From Patescibacteria group bacterium (GTDB lineage: Bacteria > Patescibacteriota > WWE3 > UBA101185 > UBA10185), in contig JAHYJU010000006.1 in the NCBI GenBank assembly GCA_019428825.1, positions 1 through 36,315 of the forward strand: a stretch of DNA of 36,315 nucleotides. The letters run 5' to 3'. Positions within the stretch are counted from its first letter, which is position 1, and each line of letters starts with the position of its first letter. The notes beneath the pieces were generated by a model. That model was not told where the DNA came from. It saw only the letters and a program-made list of their open reading frames with translations, and did no database searches. Of the stretch, positions 2,160 to 36,315 are shown piece after piece. A program made the position numbers and the translations under genes.

Positions 2160-2639
2160 CTAAAACTCATTTTTAACCCTCAATCTTTCGATACCATACT
2201 TTTCAAACTCCTTTTGATATTTTTCATAATATTTGTGCACCTTTTCAGGAAGCCAAAAATTTTTCCTTAAATCCTTCATTTCTTCCGATGATAGAGATTC
2301 AAAAAAATCCCGTTTTCCCAAACGAATCTCTAAGTTTTCCCAGAATTCTATATCATTATATTCCGCTATTATTAACTCTTCTTTTTTGCATAAATCGCTG
2401 GAAGGAAGCTTTGAGTTATTAAAATCCTGAACCAGGTCATCAAAACCCATCTCTTCAGCTTTTTCTAATACGAAATCTAGCTGTTTCTCAAACCTTTTAT
2501 AATCTTTTCCATTGTATACAGCTACTGCCTCCCTTACTGAATTTCCCACCATAAAAGAAAACAATAAATCTGCGAGATCTTTTTTTGACAACTTAGATAA
2601 AGTTTTAATTTCTTTCTTTTTATTTTTCATTGTAGTCAT
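2160..2639 (-). CDS. hypothetical protein overlapping the AbiEii toxin gene (possible third component)
   Basis: 159 aa ORF whose start overlaps the end of the AbiEii ORF (2636-2639). Confidence 0.75.
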   Translation of the reverse strand: MTTMKNKKKEIKTLSKLSKKDLADLLFSFMVGNSVREAVAVYNGKDYKRFEKQLDFVLEKAEEMGFDDLVQDFNNSKLPSSDLCKKEELIIAEYNDIEFWENLEIRLGKRDFFESLSSEEMKDLRKNFWLPEKVHKYYEKYQKEFEKYGIERLRVKNEF

Positions 2640-3349
2640 CTTATCCTCTCATAAGAATCGATATAAAATCTAATTCTATTGACAGAATCATCTATTAACT
2701 TGTTTTTAACAAAATCTCTTTGGGCTTGATCTTCCAACAGCTCACCTAAACCCAGGTGTATCGTTCTTTTGTTAAAGTTTGTTAGAATGTAGTCAGGTAG
2801 ACTTTTAAGATAATCCATGAGAGTCATTCCTGTGACTTTTTCAATTATATACCCATTGATATCCCAGCTTTTTTTAAAAAAGAAATTAATATCATATAAA
2901 TCTCTTGAGGTGGCGGCGTGACGATACTTTAAAGCAAGCAGTTTGTTTGCAAAAATATCCTCCTCTTTCATTACTAATATCGATGTACCATAAAATTCAA
3001 GGAGATCATAACTATTTATCTTCTCTATCTTTCGAGTAGAAATCTCAATTTTTATTCCGTGTTTTTGAGCAGTGTGAACAAGGTAAAAAAAGATGGTATT
3101 AGTTTTTATATGTCTATCCTTTACCTCCCCATATTTGCCGAGAATACTTGGTAATAAGTCGTAAACTTTATCTTTGACGTTCATATTTAAAAGATTAAAA
3201 TCCAAATCAACAGAAAAACGAGGTAACCCATGAAAAAAGTAACATGCGGTGCCTCCTTTAAAACCCAGTGCGCTGGAGAGCGAGCTAGTGGAGTAAACAT
3301 CATCCAAAATACTGCGCATTGTAGTTTCGTGTTTAATACGATCTAGCAT
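2636..3349 (-). CDS. AbiEii-type nucleotidyltransferase toxin (module 1)
   Basis: GFKGGTACYFFHGLPRFSVDLDFNLL (GG...R.S.DLDF nucleotidyltransferase motif) and FANKLLALKYRHAATSRDLYDI. Confidence 0.9.
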   Translation of the reverse strand: MLDRIKHETTMRSILDDVYSTSSLSSALGFKGGTACYFFHGLPRFSVDLDFNLLNMNVKDKVYDLLPSILGKYGEVKDRHIKTNTIFFYLVHTAQKHGIKIEISTRKIEKINSYDLLEFYGTSILVMKEEDIFANKLLALKYRHAATSRDLYDINFFFKKSWDINGYIIEKVTGMTLMDYLKSLPDYILTNFNKRTIHLGLGELLEDQAQRDFVKNKLIDDSVNRIRFYIDSYERIR

Positions 3350-3923
3350 ATTCCTCCAAGCTTGTTATTATACTGAAAGTTTCTTTCCTATCATAAATAA
3401 AGGCTAATTCCCTTAACTTTTCAAAATTTATATCTCTCAAATTATCGAATACAAAATCTTTTTTGATATAGATCATATCTAATAAAGCTCTCTCTTTTGA
3501 AGCAATAAAATATTTTTCATTAGCAACAATTCCTTGACTGCTAAATAAAATGCTACTTTTCACTTGTCGAAAAATCATATTCACGCCACCTACCGTCATT
3601 TTAATAGATTCCTTGCTGGCCAGTGTTATTCTACCATCCCATTGGAATATTATACCCTCCTTAAAAAGTACGGTCTCAAAAGTAATATACGAGGGTGTTC
3701 GAAGCTTGTTAGCGAGCTCCATATTATTTACAGAGCGTCCTTTAATAGCATACAACCCTCTTTTTAGTTGAATAATCTTACCAGAATTTTTTAGATAATT
3801 AATTCGTCGTACTAGGGACCTGTAATTATCGTATTTCCACAACTTATTAAAGTCCTGTGTTGAAAACACAGTCTTTGAGGTAGTATTTAAGATATCTATT
3901 AAACCTCTTGCATTATCAGTCAT
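3333..3923 (-). CDS. AbiEi-type winged-helix antitoxin (module 1)
   Basis: N-terminal winged helix (VFSTQDFNKLW...RRINYLKNSGKIIQLKRGLYAI), LRTPSYITFETVL, IASKERALLDMIYI; overlaps the AbiEii ORF. Confidence 0.88.
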   Translation of the reverse strand: MTDNARGLIDILNTTSKTVFSTQDFNKLWKYDNYRSLVRRINYLKNSGKIIQLKRGLYAIKGRSVNNMELANKLRTPSYITFETVLFKEGIIFQWDGRITLASKESIKMTVGGVNMIFRQVKSSILFSSQGIVANEKYFIASKERALLDMIYIKKDFVFDNLRDINFEKLRELAFIYDRKETFSIITSLEEYARSY

Positions 3924-4061
3924 AGGTTGACAATACTGTATAACTATAAAGGATGATAGTCAATAACTAAAAGCTTGTACCTATAAAATTAACATTTACA
4001 CTTTGATCTTTTATATAAGTTCATTTTAGCAGTGAAAGGTGAAAATGGAAGTGATAACCAA

Positions 4062-5096
4062 CTACTCATAAGTATAATAAGTAGCTCTACCCTTCCCTTT
4101 TCTTTTTATTAATCCTAATTTTCTTAATTTATAAAAATCCAAAGCTCGGGTAGATTTGGCTCTATCGGTTAATTTTGAGTACTCGCTATCAGTTATATAA
4201 CCGTACTCCTCAATGTGTTTTAAAACTTTACGATCGTGGTCTCTTAGAGAAGTACCGGGATCCGTCCCGAATTTTTCAAGCTCTTTTGACACTCTTATCA
4301 ACTCATCAATTATCCCGTCAGTAAAATATTCTAACCATTTAGTAAAATCTACATTTTTTTCAATTTCGTAATAATTTCCCTGTACCCCAACATTTTGAAA
4401 GTATTTTGTGACATTTTTATTGTAGTAATTTTCAAAACTAAACAAATTAAATGTATCTAGGCCCATATTTGCCAACAATAACTTTGTTAATAACCTCACT
4501 GTTCTTCCATTACCATCAACAAAGGGATGGATTATGACAAATTGTTTATGAAATAAACCTGCGATTATGATTGGGTCTATTTCCTCCTTATTTTTATTTA
4601 CATAATCAATTAAAGCTTTCATTAAATCATTAACATCTTTTGCATCCGGTGGAAGGTAGATAATCTCCCCATTCCTTGGATTGTTTACAACAACAGGAGC
4701 ATTCCTATAATCTCCAAAATTCCCATTTTGTAATAAACCTTTCATAACTTTTTTGTGTACATCTAGAACTAACTTTTTATTAAACGTTTTGCTTTTTCCC
4801 ATAATCTTTCGAAGATAAATTAATGCATCATTATAGTTAATAATTTCTTTTTCGCTATCTCTTGCATGTTCAGGCTTGTTTTTGAGGATCTTTTTTACCT
4901 CAGTTAAAGGCAAAATATTCCCTTCAATACTGGTTGATGAATAAACTGACATACTAACTGCAGTTTTTTCCAAATTCATTTTTATTGTTTCAGGAAATCT
5001 TCTATTATTTAACTCTGTTGTTATCCTTGTTATATCCTTTATATTGAAGAGTAATTTTGGGGTTATTGTATATTTGGGATCAAATTCCATAGACAT
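4062..5096 (-). CDS. Fic/DOC family protein (putative AMPylase), class II with C-terminal winged helix
   Basis: Fic motif HPFVDGNGRTVRLL; N-terminal inhibitory-helix motif SSTSIEGN (S/T-x-x-x-E-G/N); C-terminal wHTH-like LKHIEEYGYITDSEYSKL...LGLIKRKGKGRATYY. Confidence 0.93.
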   Translation of the reverse strand: MSMEFDPKYTITPKLLFNIKDITRITTELNNRRFPETIKMNLEKTAVSMSVYSSTSIEGNILPLTEVKKILKNKPEHARDSEKEIINYNDALIYLRKIMGKSKTFNKKLVLDVHKKVMKGLLQNGNFGDYRNAPVVVNNPRNGEIIYLPPDAKDVNDLMKALIDYVNKNKEEIDPIIIAGLFHKQFVIIHPFVDGNGRTVRLLTKLLLANMGLDTFNLFSFENYYNKNVTKYFQNVGVQGNYYEIEKNVDFTKWLEYFTDGIIDELIRVSKELEKFGTDPGTSLRDHDRKVLKHIEEYGYITDSEYSKLTDRAKSTRALDFYKLRKLGLIKRKGKGRATYYTYE

Positions 5097-5099
5097 ATT

Positions 5100-5121
5100 T
5101 TAGACGATTATTAGACGATTG
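5100..5121. promoter_or_regulatory. tandem 11-bp direct repeat TTAGACGATTA/TTAGACGATTG at the fic promoter
   Basis: Two near-identical adjacent 11-mers just upstream of the fic start. Confidence 0.45.
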
Positions 5122-5186
5122 TCAAAGAGAACTTCTAAACTAGTTACACTTTAAGTTAATAAAAACATAATAGCCGGGACTTTTAT

Positions 5187-6011
5187 TTATTTACTCTTTT
5201 TATCCAACTCTTCAAGAACATCTCCAAACAAATCAAGTTTTCTTAAATCCACAGAATCAAACAGGAACGGGTTAATTTTGGTACCAAATGTCCTTGGAAT
5301 ACCTTCGTCTTTAAATTTTTTCAGCGCTTCCTTTATCACATTTTGAACCTTATTCTTTTTCGCGAAAGATGAATCAAAACCAACACCCTGAGAATACAAC
5401 CAAACAATGTCATAGATATCCCTTGGCTGAGTCTTTTTTCTTTTAACATAAGCGGTTAACTTCTGTACCATTGTTTGATCTAATTTATTTGCCACTACAT
5501 TTTCAATAAAACCGTATTTATTGAAAAGAACTAATTCCGTTACTTGGCCTACCCAGTTATTTGTATAATCAAACTTTATCATCAGCTTTTCTCTGGGATC
5601 GGTTGAAATCTTTAAATCTTTTAGTAAATTCGGGAATCTTAAATCAAAATATGTCTTTCCCTCTGTTATCTGCTCTCTTAATTCAAGATTAAAGCCCTCT
5701 TTATGAAATCTATTAACTACATCTGTGACCAAAGATATTACTTCTTTATTTGATAACCCTAGGTTATCAAAATCAAGGTCTTCGGAAAAACGATTTAAGT
5801 TTCTGAGAAGTCTTAGACTTGAACCACCAACAAAAGACATTTTTTCTGAACCTGATAAGGAGTAAAAAATAGATATAAATTTTGATTGCAGGTACTCCCT
5901 AATTACACCTCTTTTTCTATCTACAGGAATACTGTTTTGCTTGGCGAATTGAAGTATTTGGTCGAAATTTGAAATAATATTGTTCATAATCTTAACACCT
6001 TCCCAACCCAC
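5187..6011 (-). CDS. AbiEii-type nucleotidyltransferase toxin (module 2)
   Basis: MSFVGGSSLRLLRNLNRFSEDLDFDNLG; KLTAYVKRKKTQPRDIYDIVWL. The likely true start is the internal MNNIISNF. Confidence 0.88.
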   Translation of the reverse strand: MGWEGVKIMNNIISNFDQILQFAKQNSIPVDRKRGVIREYLQSKFISIFYSLSGSEKMSFVGGSSLRLLRNLNRFSEDLDFDNLGLSNKEVISLVTDVVNRFHKEGFNLELREQITEGKTYFDLRFPNLLKDLKISTDPREKLMIKFDYTNNWVGQVTELVLFNKYGFIENVVANKLDQTMVQKLTAYVKRKKTQPRDIYDIVWLYSQGVGFDSSFAKKNKVQNVIKEALKKFKDEGIPRTFGTKINPFLFDSVDLRKLDLFGDVLEELDKKSK

Positions 6012-6556
6012 TCGGGAAAATGGGAAATATATTTTCTTAGTATATTATTGTCATTATTTGACATATATATTCTACTGCCCGATATATCTTTTATACGCCT
6101 AACATAGATGTAATCCAATAGAGCTTTTTCTATTGATGCAATGTTGTAGTAGATATTACTCTGTTCGTCCAATACACTTTTGTAACCAAAAAAAAGATTC
6201 GAATTAACTTTACTGTAAGAGAATTTTCCTATCTCAGTATCGAATTTTTTTGACGTTACTGTAGTTATACTAGTTATTGTAGACGGTATGTCAGGAATTA
6301 CTCCGTAAATATTTAACGCGTACTCTAAACTTACATAAGAGGGTGAGTAGAGTTTGTTGGCAATTACCAACTCATCTATTTTGGAATCCGGAAACATAAA
6401 TAATTCTCTTTTTATACCAATTACCTCACCTCTATTTCTAAATCTATATAACTGGGTGTTTATTTGTTCTTTTGATTCATGAGAAAATGCTTTGGATATA
6501 TCGGTTCTTGTGAATATTGGGGTTTTAATTTTTTCTTTTAGTTCTTTTAGTGTCAT
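5984..6556 (-). CDS. AbiEi-type winged-helix antitoxin (module 2)
   Basis: PIFTRTDISKAF...YRFRNRGEVIGIKRELFMFP, LYSPSYVSLEYAL, IASIEKALLDYIYV; overlaps the downstream toxin. Confidence 0.85.
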   Translation of the reverse strand: MTLKELKEKIKTPIFTRTDISKAFSHESKEQINTQLYRFRNRGEVIGIKRELFMFPDSKIDELVIANKLYSPSYVSLEYALNIYGVIPDIPSTITSITTVTSKKFDTEIGKFSYSKVNSNLFFGYKSVLDEQSNIYYNIASIEKALLDYIYVRRIKDISGSRIYMSNNDNNILRKYISHFPEWVGKVLRL

Positions 6557-6564
6557 TAATAGTT

Positions 6565-6584
6565 AATATACAATAGTGTATATT
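6565..6584. promoter_or_regulatory. palindromic putative operator of AbiE module 2 (AATATACA-ATAG-TGTATATT)
   Basis: Perfect 8-bp arms with a 4-bp spacer, ~9 bp upstream of the antitoxin start. Confidence 0.6.
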
Positions 6585-6673
6585 ATCTGTCAATAGTAAT
6601 TTCGAATAAAACGTGAAAAAGCGAATATAATTTTGTAGTATTTCTAAATTAAAGTATCTTCATAAATGAAAAC

Positions 6674-6934
6674 TCATCTGTATGCGTCTTTTCTATGATC
6701 AAGGGTATATATTTTTATCTCTTTTTTGTCCGGGTTAAAGATAAAAAGTACTCTGTAATCACCTACTCTTAGTCTATATCCATGAAGAGGTTTTTTTAAC
6801 TTTTTAACGTTTGCTGTCTTACCACTAAAATTTTCTAATGTTTTAATTTTGGATATAATGTTTTTTCTATTCTTTGGAGAAAGTAATTTTAGCTTCTGTT
6901 GAATTTTTTTCTCAACATATACTGTGTATTTCAT
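6674..6934 (-). CDS. RelE/ParE-superfamily toxin
   Basis: 86 aa; KKIQQKLKLLSPKNRKNIISKIKTLENF...KPLHGYRLRVGDYRVLFIFNPDKKEIKIYTLDHRKDAYR is typical of RelE. Confidence 0.92.
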   Translation of the reverse strand: MKYTVYVEKKIQQKLKLLSPKNRKNIISKIKTLENFSGKTANVKKLKKPLHGYRLRVGDYRVLFIFNPDKKEIKIYTLDHRKDAYR

Positions 6935-7203
6935 TCATCCATATCCTCAAGAAGATTGTCCAAAGTAATAAAAGAGTTGTCTTTTAAACTAATTGCTTTC
7001 TCCAGGTCTCTGGAATCTACATAATCTTCATAGGATTTAACAAATTCATCGTATGCTTTTGGACTTAAAAATACACCTACTTTTTTATCCCTGTTCATAA
7101 CTAACACAGGTTCTTTACTCTCTGATATTACATCAAAGGTTGGTTTGGTTTTTCTTTGAAAATCACTAACTGAAATTATTTTTTTTGGTAATGGATTTAA
7201 CAT
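6931..7203 (-). CDS. Phd/YefM-type antitoxin
   Basis: SVSDFQRKTKPTFDVISESKEPVLVMNRDKKVGVFLSPKAYDEF; overlaps the RelE-like gene. Confidence 0.88.
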   Translation of the reverse strand: MLNPLPKKIISVSDFQRKTKPTFDVISESKEPVLVMNRDKKVGVFLSPKAYDEFVKSYEDYVDSRDLEKAISLKDNSFITLDNLLEDMDE

Positions 7204-7204
7204 G

Positions 7205-7228
7205 ATTTACAGTATATATGCTGTAAAT
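7205..7228. promoter_or_regulatory. palindromic putative operator (ATTTACAG-tatatatg-CTGTAAAT)
   Basis: Perfect 8-bp arms immediately upstream of the antitoxin start. Confidence 0.65.
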
Positions 7229-7253
7229 TAAATGTCAATGAAAAGTATTATCG

Positions 7254-7979
7254 CTAATGTATTTCTTTCTCCAACATCAACAAAAGCTCATCTTTAAGAT
7301 GGGGTAACACAGTGTTTAATTTCCCGGAATCAACTAATGGGTTTAAATCCTCATTTAACAAACGGGTATCAACGTTATCTTTGATAAATTTAAATAGACT
7401 TTCTATGTACTCCTTGTAGGACATTTTTGATAAATCTTCTACAACTTTTTTATTTATTTCCAATCCTTGTGTAAAAAAATTGTGAATATCGTAAAAATCT
7501 CTCCCTGAAATTTTTCCGGTTTTGTCGAAACGACTCTTGGCAGCAATTAACTTGTTGGCAAACATTGTGTCTAATGTGTGGCCACGACAGTACGTATTTA
7601 ACTCAAGTAAACTAACCGATTCGTATTCATTGAATTTACTGGGTCTATCATTTATCTCTAATTTAAGTGTGTTTCTTTGAACTTGAGGTGTATCGTATTT
7701 TAAGAAAAATTGAAGGTGGTTTTTACTTTCATCTTTAATTAATAAACCAAGATCATTAAATATCTCATATAGAGAGTCTCTTATCTCAGACTTAAATGTG
7801 TCGTCAGGAAGATCAAAATCCAAATCAGTCGAAAAACGGTCCAAAACACCTCTTAAGGAAGCGTAAGTACCTCCTTTAAACATCAGATTGTTTGACAGTA
7901 AGTTATTAGAAAGAATTGATCTTAACAATCTTAAAAGTTGAATTTTGTGATTTATATCTTCTTTTTTTGGTGTAAACAT
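7254..7979 (-). CDS. AbiEii-type nucleotidyltransferase toxin (module 3)
   Basis: MFKGGTYASLRGVLDRFSTDLDFDLPD; FANKLIAAKSRFDKTGKISGRDFYDIHNF. Confidence 0.9.
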   Translation of the reverse strand: MFTPKKEDINHKIQLLRLLRSILSNNLLSNNLMFKGGTYASLRGVLDRFSTDLDFDLPDDTFKSEIRDSLYEIFNDLGLLIKDESKNHLQFFLKYDTPQVQRNTLKLEINDRPSKFNEYESVSLLELNTYCRGHTLDTMFANKLIAAKSRFDKTGKISGRDFYDIHNFFTQGLEINKKVVEDLSKMSYKEYIESLFKFIKDNVDTRLLNEDLNPLVDSGKLNTVLPHLKDELLLMLEKEIH

Positions 7980-7981
7980 AT

Positions 7982-8548
7982 TTAGTAACCTACAAGTTCT
8001 TTAATTTCAGATACGCTACCCCAGGTAATAGGTGATTCGTTATCAAAAAAATACTTTGGATTGTAATACTGAATATCAACTACTGCACGCTCCAAAGAAG
8101 CAATTGAGTACTTTTTTTCATCTTTTATTCCAACACGATTAAAAAGAAATTCGGAATTCATCTTTCTGACTAAAAAAGATATATTTTCATATTTAAAATC
8201 CATTTCTCTATCTCCTACTAATGTAATTTTTTTTACGTTTTGCATAATAACTCCGTTCTGACTTAATACTGTTTCTAAAGATACATAAGAAAAGGGTCCT
8301 GATAGAGCACAACCTATTTCAAAAGGATCAAGTTTTGAAGGCTCGATTTTTGAAAACATTCCTTTTTTTATTCTGTGTAGTGTTTTGTTTTGAACGTATC
8401 TTTTTAATGTAGTCCAAAGAGTATTTTTATTTGTTATACCCCAGATAGTTGCTATATCAGAACTTGAAAAGATGTTTTTGTCAGCGTTTATCAGCATTTT
8501 TAATTTATCTTTTTGGTCTATCCTGTACATATATGTACAGGATAACAT
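7982..8548 (-). CDS. AbiEi-type winged-helix antitoxin (module 3)
   Basis: IFSSSDIATIWGITNKNTLWTTLKRYVQNKTLHRIKKGMFS, GPFSYVSLETVL, IASLERAVVDIQYY. The real start may be internal (MYRIDQKDK, about 8530). Confidence 0.85.
   Translation of the reverse strand: MLSCTYMYRIDQKDKLKMLINADKNIFSSSDIATIWGITNKNTLWTTLKRYVQNKTLHRIKKGMFSKIEPSKLDPFEIGCALSGPFSYVSLETVLSQNGVIMQNVKKITLVGDREMDFKYENISFLVRKMNSEFLFNRVGIKDEKKYSIASLERAVVDIQYYNPKYFFDNESPITWGSVSEIKELVGY
8519..8544. promoter_or_regulatory. perfect 26-bp palindrome TATCCTGTACATATATGTACAGGATA at the start of AbiEi module 3
   Basis: The sequence equals its own reverse complement; it overlaps the proposed start codon. Confidence 0.75.
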
Positions 8549-30684: not shown

Positions 30685-31569
30685 TTATTCCTTCTCTTCT
30701 TCTTCAGCAGAAGATTCTTTAATAGCAATTTCTTGTTCTTCTTTTACAACTTCTTCTACCAACTTTTCTTCAACAGCCACAGCAACTTCCTCCGGCACAA
30801 CTTCAACTTTCTCTTCTTCTTTAGCTTCTTTTTCAGCATTTTCCTGTGCTTCTTTCTTTTCTTTTTCAGACTTTCCAAATTCCTTGTAGCCCTCTTCTAC
30901 TGCATCTGCGATTGCCCTGACTAATAAAGCAACTGATTTTAATGCATCGTCATTTCCGGGTATAGGATAATCAATATCCGAAGGATCACAATTGGTATCA
31001 ACAACCGAAACTACGGGGGCGTCTGATCTTTTTGCTTCTCTAATAGCTGTTTTTTCTCTTTTAGGATCTAAAACAAAAAGAACTTCGGGAGCTTTTTTAA
31101 GAGAGGAAATACCTCCGTAAGTAGCTTCTAATTTTTCAATTTCTCTGTCTATCATTAGACGTTCTTTTTTTGTGTAAATTGAAAACTTACCTTCTTCTCT
31201 TCCTTTTATGTAATCCAGGAGTTTATCAATATTCTTTTTTATAGTCTCAAAATTAGTAATTGTACCTCCAACCCATCTTTCACTTACAAACAGCGCTCCT
31301 GACCTTCTGGCCTCATTCTCAATAATTTCTTTAGACTGTCTTTTTGTTCCTACAAAAACTATTACTTTACCTTGAGAGGCTTGTTCATAAAGAAAATCAC
31401 AAGCTTTCTGAAGCATTTCTTCTGTTTTTTCAAGGTCAATTATATGTACGTTTTTATTTACAGTGTAAATGTAAGGCTCCATCTTTGGGTGCCATTTTCT
31501 AGCTTGATGTCCAAAATGAACGCCCGAATCTATCATCTCCTGTATTTTAGGTAGTTTATATTTTGCCAT
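30685..31569 (-). CDS. rpsB: 30S ribosomal protein uS2 with acidic C-terminal tail
   Basis: IQEMIDSGVHFGHQARKWHPKMEPYIYTVNKNVHIIDLEKT...FVGTKRQSKEII...RWVGGTITNF; Glu/Ala/Val-rich C-terminus. Confidence 0.97.
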   Translation of the reverse strand: MAKYKLPKIQEMIDSGVHFGHQARKWHPKMEPYIYTVNKNVHIIDLEKTEEMLQKACDFLYEQASQGKVIVFVGTKRQSKEIIENEARRSGALFVSERWVGGTITNFETIKKNIDKLLDYIKGREEGKFSIYTKKERLMIDREIEKLEATYGGISSLKKAPEVLFVLDPKREKTAIREAKRSDAPVVSVVDTNCDPSDIDYPIPGNDDALKSVALLVRAIADAVEEGYKEFGKSEKEKKEAQENAEKEAKEEEKVEVVPEEVAVAVEEKLVEEVVKEEQEIAIKESSAEEEEKE

Positions 31570-31596
31570 TTATATTTTCTTTCTTTTAATTTTTAT

Positions 31597-31830
31597 GAGG
31601 GAATTTAAAAAAAGAGTAAGTGTCTTTTAAAATTTCCCTCTTTTACTTTTGAAATTAATTAACTTAGTAATTTCTCACCTGAGCCCCCGCCTACGCTAAA
31701 GTCTTTACCTGCCGTAGCCTTTTATAGGCGAAGGTAGGGATTCGGCGGGTAAAACCGCCCAAGACATCTGCGTTCTAAAATCTCCTGGGGGAGAGAGTTT
31801 CAGGACATGGGTAAATTATCACGTGGTGGG
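31597..31830 (-). promoter_or_regulatory. candidate structured rpsB leader with GC-rich palindromes
   Basis: GAGGGAA/TTTCCCTC stem, GGCGGgtaaaaCCGCC hairpin, CTAAAATCTCCtgggGGAGAGAGTTTCAG hairpin, ORF-free. Confidence 0.45.
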
Positions 31831-31891: not shown

Positions 31892-31921
31892 TTGATATGA
31901 GACTTGCGATTGATGTATAAT
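31892..31921 (+). promoter_or_regulatory. sigma70-type promoter TTGATA-N18-TATAAT
   Basis: -35 31892-31897, -10 31916-31921, just upstream of the candidate ncRNA. Confidence 0.65.
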
Positions 31922-31927
31922 AAGATT

Positions 31928-32165
31928 ACAAAACTGGAGGCGGGATCAAGTAGAAAGGGAAAAAATGAAACACCTTGTTTTTAAATCTATTGCTGCCAAT
32001 TTTATTAGCAAGATTTGAAAGGAGGTGATCAAAGGGCCGGCAAGTGGCAAGGTTAAATCCTTAATACTTACCATATAAGCCCTGTCTCTACTTGTTCAAA
32101 TTTAGGGAAAGGAGAAAAGGAAAAAATTTGATTTTTTAAAAATTAATCCAACCCGCCTCTTTTCT
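31928..32165 (+). ncRNA. candidate novel structured RNA with 16S 3'-end complementarity
   Basis: Nested helices GAGGCGGG/CCCGCCTC, CAAGTAGA/TCTACTTG, AAATCT/AGATTT, GGGC/GCCC, AAGG/CCTT, TCAAATTT/AAATTTGA; promoter upstream and T-rich 3' end. Confidence 0.6.
31965..32018 (+). CDS. possible 17-aa ORF inside the candidate ncRNA (MKHLVFKSIAANFISKI)
   Basis: ATG with AAAGGG 5 nt upstream; stop TGA overlaps GAAAGGAGGTGATC. Confidence 0.3.
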   Translation: MKHLVFKSIAANFISKI

Positions 32166-32217
32166 TTCCATATAGAGATTATTTAGTCAAAATATATACT
32201 ATTAACAACACTCTAAA

Positions 32218-33954
32218 CTATTTTAACTCATAAACCCAAGTATCATTTGGGATATCAGCAAAGTAAAGGTCACCATAATCATTAACAAAATCCTTAAGTC
32301 TTGATTGGTGTCTCTCAGGACATCCAAAAAACACAATTCTTTCATCAAGTCTATCAAGAAGTATTAAGTATCTTATATTATTCTCTTTCAATTCAGCATA
32401 CATACCCTCATTGCTTCTTTTAGAATATCCGAAATACAAACTGTCCCTTACAACCCTTTTATCGTAATCATTTAAAAAGGTTAGAAAAACTTGCTGAGGG
32501 AAAGGACTACTATCTAATATTAAACCCTCGGTGTTACTTAACATTGTTGATATATATTCATTACCTAATAAAAATTTGCTTTTTTTAGGATTATTTATAG
32601 GATTTCGTAGCAAAAACATTAAAAATGTCGATGCACCTAAAATTAAAAATATAAATCTTAAATACCTTTCTTGATTTCCATCAAAAAAATACTCATAAAG
32701 CGGCACTACGTAAATTGGAAACAAAAAGAATAAATACCAGTATACAGTCCTTATTGAAATAAAATAGTAAATGGTATAGAAAAAGGTAGCTAGAAATAAA
32801 AAGTTGTCATATTTTTCTCTTCTTTTAATTATAAGGGGTATAAATATTATTATCGAAATGTACAAGTACGGTCCGGGGTCTCTGAGCCTCACACGAATAA
32901 ATCCACTGTTAATATTATAAAAATAGTTTATTGGTTGACTAAGAAAATCCCAAATACTTCTGTCATTAATAATATGGGAGAAATCTACTGTCTTCTGCTC
33001 CCTAAGACACTCCCCATAAACACTGTCAATTTTTTCAAAAACAACAGTAGGATTTTTATCTTTCGGATATATATTTATATTAGTCCAAGGAATCGCCAAA
33101 CCGAAATTTACAATCCAAAATAATAAAAGTAGAGAGATTATCAGAGGAGATATAAATGAAACCAATAGCTCTTTATATAGTCGATGTTTAAATAGGCTAA
33201 AAACATGCAATCCTGTAAGGATGAGATAGAAAGGCAAAACAGAAATCTTAGTCAGTATTGCCAACCCGGAGAAAATACCAAATAATAAATACCTGATCAG
33301 GTTACCACTGTTTTTTATGTCTACGTAAATAATGAAAGATAGCAAACTAAACATCAGAAGAAATTGGTCAATTTTAAACTCGTATAGAGCTAAATCAAGA
33401 TAAACAGGAGTCGTAGCAACAATAAAGATTAGAAAACTATACTTATACTTAGAAAAACCAAGTTTTTTATAAAAAACTTTCAAAAGAAATATATTAATCA
33501 AAGACACTACAATAAAGCTGGTATAAACATAGCTTTTTGACATATACCTCCATATAGCAGCCAACATTAATTCTATTAAATAAGGGGGGTGTGCAGAATT
33601 AGTAAAGTTTAAGAAAAAATTATCTTTTAACAACAAGACTCTTTTTAGATACCATAATTGACCATCCCAGCTATTATAACGAAGATAACTACTGGAGCTC
33701 AGAACTAACATAAGGGTAATTGAAATTAAGAATACATTGAATAGTAAATTTACTATTATTAATTCTTTATTGGAAAGGATTTTTATTGTGAATACAATCA
33801 ATACCGCAAAAAAAAATGCGACTAAATACCACCAAAGAAGTATAGGCCTACTAATCAAATATATCAGAATCAAAACCGGAATTATTAAATATTTTTTTCT
33901 TAATAAATTTACTTCTGAAGAGAGCGTTTTAAAAAGTTTTTTGTAATAATCCAT
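32218..33954 (-). CDS. polytopic membrane glycosyltransferase (PMT/ArnT-like, GT-C fold)
   Basis: Many transmembrane segments; RYNSWDGQLWYLKRV and FTNSAHPPYLIELMLA luminal-loop patterns. Confidence 0.75.
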   Translation of the reverse strand: MDYYKKLFKTLSSEVNLLRKKYLIIPVLILIYLISRPILLWWYLVAFFFAVLIVFTIKILSNKELIIVNLLFNVFLISITLMLVLSSSSYLRYNSWDGQLWYLKRVLLLKDNFFLNFTNSAHPPYLIELMLAAIWRYMSKSYVYTSFIVVSLINIFLLKVFYKKLGFSKYKYSFLIFIVATTPVYLDLALYEFKIDQFLLMFSLLSFIIYVDIKNSGNLIRYLLFGIFSGLAILTKISVLPFYLILTGLHVFSLFKHRLYKELLVSFISPLIISLLLLFWIVNFGLAIPWTNINIYPKDKNPTVVFEKIDSVYGECLREQKTVDFSHIINDRSIWDFLSQPINYFYNINSGFIRVRLRDPGPYLYISIIIFIPLIIKRREKYDNFLFLATFFYTIYYFISIRTVYWYLFFLFPIYVVPLYEYFFDGNQERYLRFIFLILGASTFLMFLLRNPINNPKKSKFLLGNEYISTMLSNTEGLILDSSPFPQQVFLTFLNDYDKRVVRDSLYFGYSKRSNEGMYAELKENNIRYLILLDRLDERIVFFGCPERHQSRLKDFVNDYGDLYFADIPNDTWVYELK

Positions 33955-34613
33955 ATAAATTTCAAACCGTCTATAGGTCTTATACTTTTTCCCTCCTTAA
34001 TAGATCTAGGTTTGTAGGATATCGGAAATTCTACTATCTTTATACCTCTATTATTAAGTATACATGTTAGTTGTGCACAGAAACCGAATTTTTTCTCAGT
34101 TATCATTTTAGGTTCCACAATATCTCTCCTAAAAACCTTATAGCAAGTTGAAATATCTGTAATATTATCCCTAAAAAGCAGGTTGTAGTATCTGGTTATA
34201 AAAATATTTCCCCAAAGAAAAAGGCGGTGTTTGTACGGATTTTTTTTTAATAATCTAGATCCATAAACTGCACTATAACTATTATCTATCGCCAAACTAT
34301 ACAAATAGAATAATTCTGAAGGATTATACTCTAAATCTGCATCCTGTATTGCTAAATAATCTCCCCTAGCTACCTCCATACCACTCCTTACTGCATCTGT
34401 TTTACCCCGATTTTTATCTAATCTTAAAGCAACCATACTGTCATATTTTTCTGATAATATTTTTAAATATTCCTCAGTTTTATCAGTCGAACCATCATCA
34501 ACCACTATTAGCTCAAAATCATTATAATTAGAAGAGTTATTGTAAACATTCTCTATTACCTCTCTGATTGTCTTATCTTCATTATAGACTGGTATTATTA
34601 TGCTTAGACTCAT
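33909..34613 (-). CDS. GT2 family glycosyltransferase (DPM1-like)
   Basis: MSLSIIIPVYNEDKTIREVIENVY...IVVDDGSTDKTEEYL...IQDADLEYNPSEL. Confidence 0.95.
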   Translation of the reverse strand: MSLSIIIPVYNEDKTIREVIENVYNNSSNYNDFELIVVDDGSTDKTEEYLKILSEKYDSMVALRLDKNRGKTDAVRSGMEVARGDYLAIQDADLEYNPSELFYLYSLAIDNSYSAVYGSRLLKKNPYKHRLFLWGNIFITRYYNLLFRDNITDISTCYKVFRRDIVEPKMITEKKFGFCAQLTCILNNRGIKIVEFPISYKPRSIKEGKSIRPIDGLKFIWIITKNFLKRSLQK

Positions 34614-34692: not shown

Positions 34693-36315
34693 TCAAACCA
34701 ACGTACTCAAACTCTCCCTCTTCTTCTCCTCTTTAGGAATAGGATTAGTCCAACTACTCCAGTCACAATCCGGGTATCTGCTGCAACCATAAAACACTTT
34801 TCTTTTAGCTTTTTTAACAACCACATCCCCTTCTCCGCATTCCGGACACTTAATTCCGATTTTATCCATATAATTTTTTGTCGTTTTGCACTTTGGATAA
34901 TTACTGCAAGCTAAAAACTTACCAAACCTACCCTGCCTTAATATAAAAACACCATCTTCGCAATTTGGACACTTTCCATAATCAACTTTTTCTTCCTCTT
35001 CTTTTGAACCATTTTCCCCGGCTAAAGGTTTAGCATATTTACACTCAGGATAACCAGAGCAACTTAAAAATTTCCCATATTTTCCAAGTTTAAAAACCAA
35101 CGTCTTACCACAATCAGGACATTTTTCATCACTCTCACCAAGGTTTGTCACTTCTCTTTTGCTAAGAACCTTTTCTTTTTCAATCAATTCTTTTTCAAAA
35201 GGTTCGTAAAAATTCCTGATTACAGGCACCCATTCCTTATTACCAAGAGCAATCTCGTCTAAATCCTCCTCCAAACCTGCAGTAAAACCATAGTCAACTA
35301 TCTCGGGAAAGTGTTCCACCAACAAATCAGTAACTACATTGGCAACATCCCTGGGACTAAAATATTTCCCATCTTTTTCAACATAACCACGGGCTTGAAT
35401 TGTTGTTATTGTGGGAGCGTATGTTGAAGGTCTTCCTACACCTAATTCTTCCATCTTTTTAATTAAAGTAGCATCGCTGTATCTGGCAGGAGGTTGAGTA
35501 AAATGCTGGTCAGAAGTAAGTTCCTTGAGTTCAACTTTATCATTTTCTTTTAGATCAGGAATTAAAGAAAGATCCCCATTACCATTTGAACTTTCCGAAT
35601 CACTTGAACCATTTTGTGAAATACCTAAAAATCTGGAAATTCCCAACCATCCTTCAAATTTTATTTGGGAACCGGTAGCTCTAAAAGTATATTTTTTATC
35701 AGATTGAACTAATACATTAGTCTGATCGTATACTGCAGGATTCATCTGACATTCAAGGGACCTTTTCCAAATTATTGAGTAAACTTTTAACTCATCAGCA
35801 TTAAGTTTTTTACTGCTTTTTCCCGGTATAAAAAGAACATCAGTAGGTCTTATCGCTTCATGCGCTTCCTGTGCATTTTTTGATTTTGTCTTATAAAAAA
35901 TAGGTTTAGAAGGGATATATGACGAGCCGAATTCTTTTTTGATGAAGTTACGGGCGGCGCTGACAAATGAAGGAGATAAATTTAAGGAATCTGTTCTGTG
36001 ATAAGTTATGTAACCCTTCTCAAATAATCCCTGCGCCGCCGACATTGTCCTTTTCGCTGTAAAACCGAATACATTGGACATTGTTTGTTGTAATGTGGAA
36101 GTACTTAAAGGAGCGTAAGGTCTACTGTTCCTTTCGGATTTTTTAATTGATGAAATAATGAAGTCATCGTCTTTAAGGTCATTTTCAATTTTCTTTGCGC
36201 TTTCTTTATCGGAAATGTTAATTTTTACACCTTCTTTTTCAACTAGCTGTGCTTCAAAGCTGTTACTACGAAGATCCTGAAAAAGACCTTTCATGGACCA
36301 ATATTCTTCTGATTT
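34693..36315 (-). CDS. topA: DNA topoisomerase I, C-terminal part (gene truncated by window end)
   Basis: GLFEKGYITYHRTDSLNLS, QEAHEAIRPTDV, QPPARYSDATLIKKMEELGVGRPSTYAPTI, three C-terminal C4 zinc ribbons; ORF reads into the window edge. Confidence 0.95.
   Translation of the reverse strand, partial: KSEEYWSMKGLFQDLRSNSFEAQLVEKEGVKINISDKESAKKIENDLKDDDFIISSIKKSERNSRPYAPLSTSTLQQTMSNVFGFTAKRTMSAAQGLFEKGYITYHRTDSLNLSPSFVSAARNFIKKEFGSSYIPSKPIFYKTKSKNAQEAHEAIRPTDVLFIPGKSSKKLNADELKVYSIIWKRSLECQMNPAVYDQTNVLVQSDKKYTFRATGSQIKFEGWLGISRFLGISQNGSSDSESSNGNGDLSLIPDLKENDKVELKELTSDQHFTQPPARYSDATLIKKMEELGVGRPSTYAPTITTIQARGYVEKDGKYFSPRDVANVVTDLLVEHFPEIVDYGFTAGLEEDLDEIALGNKEWVPVIRNFYEPFEKELIEKEKVLSKREVTNLGESDEKCPDCGKTLVFKLGKYGKFLSCSGYPECKYAKPLAGENGSKEEEEKVDYGKCPNCEDGVFILRQGRFGKFLACSNYPKCKTTKNYMDKIGIKCPECGEGDVVVKKAKRKVFYGCSRYPDCDWSSWTNPIPKEEKKRESLSTLV

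Follow-up and report, generated by a model that had tools for sequence, protein, structure and literature searches.

The stretch between rpsB and the next gene on contig C67 of an 842-kb draft genome (G000) of an uncultured Patescibacteria species raises the question whether it encodes an RNA of a new kind. Throughout, the window denotes the whole piece of DNA that was analysed, i.e., 36,315 nt of this contig. An earlier note on it had proposed a novel structured non-coding RNA with a multi-branched fold, preceded by a promoter and resembling none of tmRNA, RNase P, SRP or 6S RNA. The candidate is located on the plus strand outside genes, next to the following genes.

30685-31569, minus strand: rpsB, adjoining the intergenic stretch
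32218-33954, minus strand: membrane-type protein without Pfam match, past the intergenic stretch
33909-34613, minus strand: GT2 glycosyltransferase
34693-36294, minus strand: topA

Elsewhere in the window, a toxin-antitoxin-like gene cluster is found on the minus strand (2160-8548), comprising three nucleotidyltransferases of the AbiEii type, preceded by AbiEi-like partners of which one matches Pfam below threshold, together with a Fic protein; by eye, positions 6674-7203 look like a RelE-type toxin-antitoxin pair.

Known RNA classes and relatives of the element

We scanned the window together with 16 rpsB loci against Rfam and obtained no match at the gathering threshold, while the best sub-threshold matches under relaxed thresholds are noise (E 1.2 and 3.1). 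The tmRNA of the genome (RF00023) is encoded at G000:C4:5955-6340 (89 bits) and has no match in the window. The 6S model (RF00013), which may miss divergent 6S RNAs, matches neither the window nor any of 30 family genomes. A ribosomal-protein leader was rejected given that the candidate is on the plus strand while rpsB is on the minus strand. With CsrB/RsmZ-type sponge RNAs the stretch shares several GGA/AGGA-rich sites, but CsrA (PF02599) was detected neither in the window genome nor in any of the 30 family members (controls positive), such that a CsrA-sequestering sRNA was dismissed as well.

Among the rpsB-upstream stretches, only that of genome G002 is similar to the candidate, with a local alignment score of 138 vs 69±8 for shuffles (maximum 91 in 300); the other rpsB junctions examined score like shuffles. 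The G002 contig is identical to JAKLGS010000082.1 ('Patescibacteria group bacterium RA.bin45', same genus as the window genome), and in a comparison of the relatives' rpsB loci its RpsB is 80-81% identical. On this short contig, topA directly follows the element, i.e., the window's two genes of the glycosyltransferase region are missing. In the congeneric G003, rpsB lies beside topA and the element is absent; overall, it is present in 2/4 genus genomes.

For more distant relatives, we used two profiles covering the element from the promoter to the 16S-pairing site described below (R1) and from this site to the 3' end (R2). Both profiles find only G000 and G002 significant among the 30 family genomes, and R1 likewise identifies only these two among 48 class genomes (none detected in the 46 others). 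The next-best R1 matches (E 0.003-0.03) look like chance, with L084 reading as FtsH-like coding sequence, and the other sub-best R1 matches that were read hold no element. A BLAST-type DNA search of 38 relatives returned the query itself and short low-complexity or 16S-tail matches only. Scanning 85,488 species genomes for the pattern AAAGGNNNAAAATG-N35-65-AGGAGGNGATC yielded one true homologue, which is the same G002 contig. Ten further matches of the pattern appear to be chance, mostly within coding-like sequence, and nine near-identical ones in viral contigs look, by eye, like plastid-type antisense 16S; the 3'-end pattern has no match in viral contigs. Judging from these searches of draft assemblies, in which the element is known from two sequences only (window and G002), the unit is most likely confined to a sub-lineage within one Patescibacteria genus, where two known species share it.

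Two observations on other relatives are added here. A different short plus-oriented unit of about 200 nt with a TTGACA promoter is seen at the rpsB-topA junction of G001 (L023:2605-2870) and G004 (L027, reverse strand, ~2560-2800); the G001 unit shows z -4.2, a long hairpin and a TTTTTT tail. Both units are weakly similar to each other (12/200 shuffles), while homology with the window RNA is not supported. Furthermore, G003 has an Rfam group I intron match (L116:1208-1462) at or inside its 16S gene near the 3' end.

Conserved blocks, small ORF and 16S-tail complement

The alignment of both copies concentrates identity in an RBS-ATG block, an SD-like block and a 3' block, while the middle part of the element is not conserved and the flanking spacer is barely alignable. 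The features of the window copy are as follows.

31892-31921, plus strand: sigma-70-type promoter TTGATA-N18-TATAAT (hexamers at 31892-31897 and 31916-31921), 11/12 consensus positions
31937-31967, plus strand: 5' block GAGGCGGGATC..GAAAGGG-AAAAA-ATG, including the RBS AAAGGG (31954-31959) and ATG, ~78% identical to L022:2183-2213 (anchored alignment)
31965-32018, plus strand: candidate small ORF of 17 codons from the ORF list, MKHLVFKSIAANFISKI, stop TGA
31971-32027, plus strand: predicted small-ORF hairpin, CACCTT 31971-31976 with GAGGTG 32022-32027 and upper stem 31979-31988/32011-32020, in both MFE and centroid structure
32017-32030, plus strand: GAAAGGAGGTGATC, extended complement of the 16S tail directly at the ORF stop, perfect over 14 nt against the 16S 3' end of the genus
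32107-32120, plus strand: purine 5' arm GAAAGGAGAAAAGG of an alternative 3' hairpin, conserved in the homologue
32148-32168, plus strand: pyrimidine-rich candidate 3' end CAACCCGCCTCTTTTCTTTC, forming the 3' arm of the alternative hairpin, ~85% identical to CAACCCACCTCTTTCCTTTT of the homologue

Both copies show on the plus strand a -10-like hexamer 14-15 nt ahead of GAG(G/A)CGGG. In the homologue it reads TAGAAT, and the promoter scan did not call the -35 there, which is weak. The polarity of the 5' block fits plus strand transcription, and at L022, i.e., the homologous locus of G002, the block reads GAAAGGAG-AAAA-ATG; in both copies the ribosome-binding site is plausibly spaced. A small ORF of 16 codons (MVNLRILISINEANQE) is found at the same position, although the peptide sequence is not conserved. 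Despite the indel-driven difference in ORF length, the stop (TGA in the window, TAG in the homologue) abuts AGGAGGYGATC in both. The 3' block GAAAGGAGRAAAG...CAACCCRCCTCTTTYCTTT is present in both copies as well, and the consensus of the two sequences predicts a 3' hairpin of 9-10 bp with one compensatory pair; its 3' arm region includes the CCCGCCTC arm of the earlier note, which had mentioned neither the small ORF nor the 16S-tail complement. In both species an imperfect direct repeat of the RBS-ATG sequence, lacking the ATG, is seen close to the element's 3' end (window 31948-31966 and 32109-32127; L022 2198-2219 and 2382-2403).

With regard to the 16S tail (…GGATCACCTCCTTTCTA), we read it in three congeners and infer that of the window genome from them, because its own 16S gene is missing from the assembly. 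The predicted duplex with this tail has an energy of -26.1 kcal/mol, which is the strongest in the 36-kb window on both strands (next -19.7), and the homologous site reaches -22.0 kcal/mol with one mismatch. In its exact form, the 13-mer occurs in the four genomes of the genus here and otherwise only as the complement of 16S. Extended SD sites normally initiate the following gene, with rpsU as a precedent (PMC9976891). Here, no start codon is found at normal spacing 3' of the site in either species. The small-ORF hairpin would hide the site according to the predicted fold: its 63-nt stretch shows z -4.4 in the window, while the analogous CTCC/GGAG hairpin of the homologue is not more stable than shuffles.

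We tentatively favour the reading that 31916-32168 (plus strand) is a lineage-specific transcript of ~235 nt that would combine a small ORF with a functional 16S-tail-pairing site, at a confidence that stays below even. Transcription, translation, 16S binding and any regulatory outcome are what we infer from the sequence. Against this reading speak the unconserved peptides and, in the homologue, the shuffle-like hairpin, the mismatch within the site and the lack of a good -35. Such a unit would most likely act on the ribosome, while the way in which it might do so is less certain than the unit itself. Quite improbably, but conceivably, it is a small RNA that pairs with the 16S 3' tail once its own 17-codon ORF is translated, i.e., a translation-gated decoy or sensor of ribosomes in a minimal-genome bacterium. 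As long as the RNA rests, the small-ORF hairpin would sequester the 16S-pairing site. Translating the ORF would open this hairpin and free the site, which could then capture a 30S subunit by its 16S tail. Since no start codon follows the site, such a capture is proposed to occur without normal initiation. As a model, this mechanism would fit the window hairpin and would fit the homologue only weakly.

Some traits of the proposed unit are found in known systems. The closest precedent for regulation by very strong pairing with the 16S tail is the rpsU mRNA of Flavobacteriales, where bS21 autoregulates through extended SD pairing (PMC9976891); it likewise shows exceptionally strong pairing close to a ribosomal protein gene; the threshold used there (< -13 kcal/mol vs about -26 here) stems from a different energy calculation. 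In contrast to rpsU, where the site initiates the ribosomal protein gene, no cistron follows here and rpsB is on the opposite strand. Dual-function sRNAs, i.e., RNAs with both a peptide and an RNA activity, are among the subjects of PMC5521070. The predicted ~235-nt unit with own promoter and small ORF would resemble them, while its proposed partner is 16S rRNA.

The main rival, which we consider unlikely, is a leader-type attenuator mRNA that has lost its downstream cistron or carries a micro-ORF, its SD being an ordinary leftover. A promoter followed by an RBS, a short ORF and a stop that overlaps a sequestered SD is the textbook layout of an attenuator, and the order of elements matches it. 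As in leaders of the erm/cat type, a short leader ORF precedes an SD that a predicted hairpin would hide, traits that the window shows by sequence and predicted fold, while the hairpin of the homologue is shuffle-like. Extended SDs are moreover known as regulatory initiation sites (PMC9976891). However, erm/cat leaders differ from the element in that neither genome holds a downstream gene and the peptide is not conserved. That is, no plus strand ORF of useful length follows 32030 and the next genes are on the minus strand in both genomes, such that an attenuator with a regulated downstream cistron was rejected; the lack of a start at normal spacing also speaks against a relic. Furthermore, both species have kept the 3' end, for which a relic would have no need.

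Predicted fold, strand and the case for no function

Compared to our preferred reading of a short ORF-bearing transcript, an independent structured RNA that adopts the multi-branched fold of the earlier note is improbable, although all twelve arms of its helices and both promoter hexamers are indeed found at the positions it had given. The plus strand fold of 31925-32170 has an energy of -64.4 kcal/mol (z -2.84, 0/200 dinucleotide shuffles), and 31928-32165 reaches z -3.46. This stability alone is unremarkable, because the minus strand of the stretch folds no less stably (z -3.7 to -4.4) and 21/182 sampled 240-nt stretches of the window show z < -2.8 (small shuffle sets). When the 3' end is set to 32168, the model ensemble assigns pairing probabilities of 0.87-1.0 to the closing helix, 0.83-0.96 to the second helix (CAAGTAGA) and 0.72-1.0 to the AAATCT hairpin, while the GGGC/GCCC helix obtains 0.57 and the TCAAATTT/AAATTTGA helix just 0.03. 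A few bases added at the 3' end already switch the MFE fold to the different, purine/pyrimidine 3' hairpin. A U-rich stretch past the closing helix is in favour of the fold; the terminator scan of the window called none at the candidate 3' end.

The comparison with the sole homologue is less favourable. Its closing helix (GAGACGGG/CCCACCTC) contains two adjacent, uncompensated A.C mismatches, and the CAAGTAGA/TCTACTTG helix is lost. The homologue folds only slightly more stably than its shuffles (z -1.2 to -1.5), and for both sequences together the consensus structure collapses to about -9 kcal/mol. Compensatory changes, on which the earlier note had staked its proposal, are thus largely absent for the drawn helices in this one homologue. 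Since the fold-defining closing helix loses two pairs, the drawn architecture is unsupported. What survives of the proposed novel structured ncRNA is an undescribed conserved plus strand unit, which is plausible given the lack of an Rfam match, the intergenic location, the near-consensus promoter and one homologue at the same junction; beside the fold, the term 'non-coding' has become doubtful due to the small ORF with RBS and ATG in both copies.

The higher stability of the minus strand, on which both neighbours are transcribed, might suggest that the functional strand is the minus one, as a far-upstream element within the transcript of rpsB or as the 3' UTR of the glycosyltransferase gene. 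Its mimic of the 16S 3' end (GATCACCTCCTTTC) could then pair with SDs. We regard this as slightly less probable still, as it is on the plus strand that the conserved blocks resemble a -10 box, an RBS and an ATG, rpsB is preceded at a much shorter distance by a conserved promoter-like site and leader of its own, and the homologue sits between other neighbours (topA). Least probable is no function at all, i.e., intergenic DNA inherited from a common ancestor, with an SD-like stretch that is a relic or arose by chance: overall identity is low and the element, found in half of the genus genomes, is missing from the G003 junction and undetected elsewhere, but identity clusters in the RBS-ATG, SD-like and 3' blocks with barely aligning flanks, and chance is unlikely to have put a near-complete match to the 16S tail at the same position of both copies.

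The likely leader of rpsB and meaning of the locus

Beside the stretch of the earlier note, the region holds a better-supported structured RNA within the 5' UTR of rpsB.

31674-31804, minus strand: rpsB leader hairpin (CCTGA..CTCTCTCCC..GGG.TCAGGTGAG), with homologues in L022-L041

In 14 relatives, two helices of this leader show 97.3% standard pairs and two-sided changes in 7/8 pairs. The covariation score of 0.659 compares to 0.241±0.041 for shuffled data (0/500), where the shuffles overstate the significance somewhat because the sequences are related. The window copy was omitted from this set given a large insertion (~100 nt) in its apical loop. A one-column slide destroys the covariation; this control is partly biased, since the hairpin segments were selected, and their structure assigned by eye, in a MAFFT alignment, while the two-sided changes are not produced by such a choice. 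No Rfam match to the leader was found in the window and the 16 rpsB loci. It is a candidate S2 autoregulatory leader. In a brief search of open-access full texts, one paper on new ribosomal leaders (PMC7247131) names rpsB a single time, within the operon of an L13 candidate in Bacteroidia, and does not refer to Patescibacteria. A further hairpin, GAGGGAAA...TTTCCCTC (about 31592-31645, minus strand), is situated between this leader and the start of rpsB; by eye it recurs in relatives, and it is a possible attenuator.

If the plus strand unit is not real, the locus is still instructive, as a fold that convinces in one sequence fails when compared to the sole homologue, right beside an rpsB leader hairpin that clearly passes a covariation test. 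If it is real, it would add to the few small RNAs that have been described in Patescibacteria, with an extended 16S-tail-pairing site used without a following gene.
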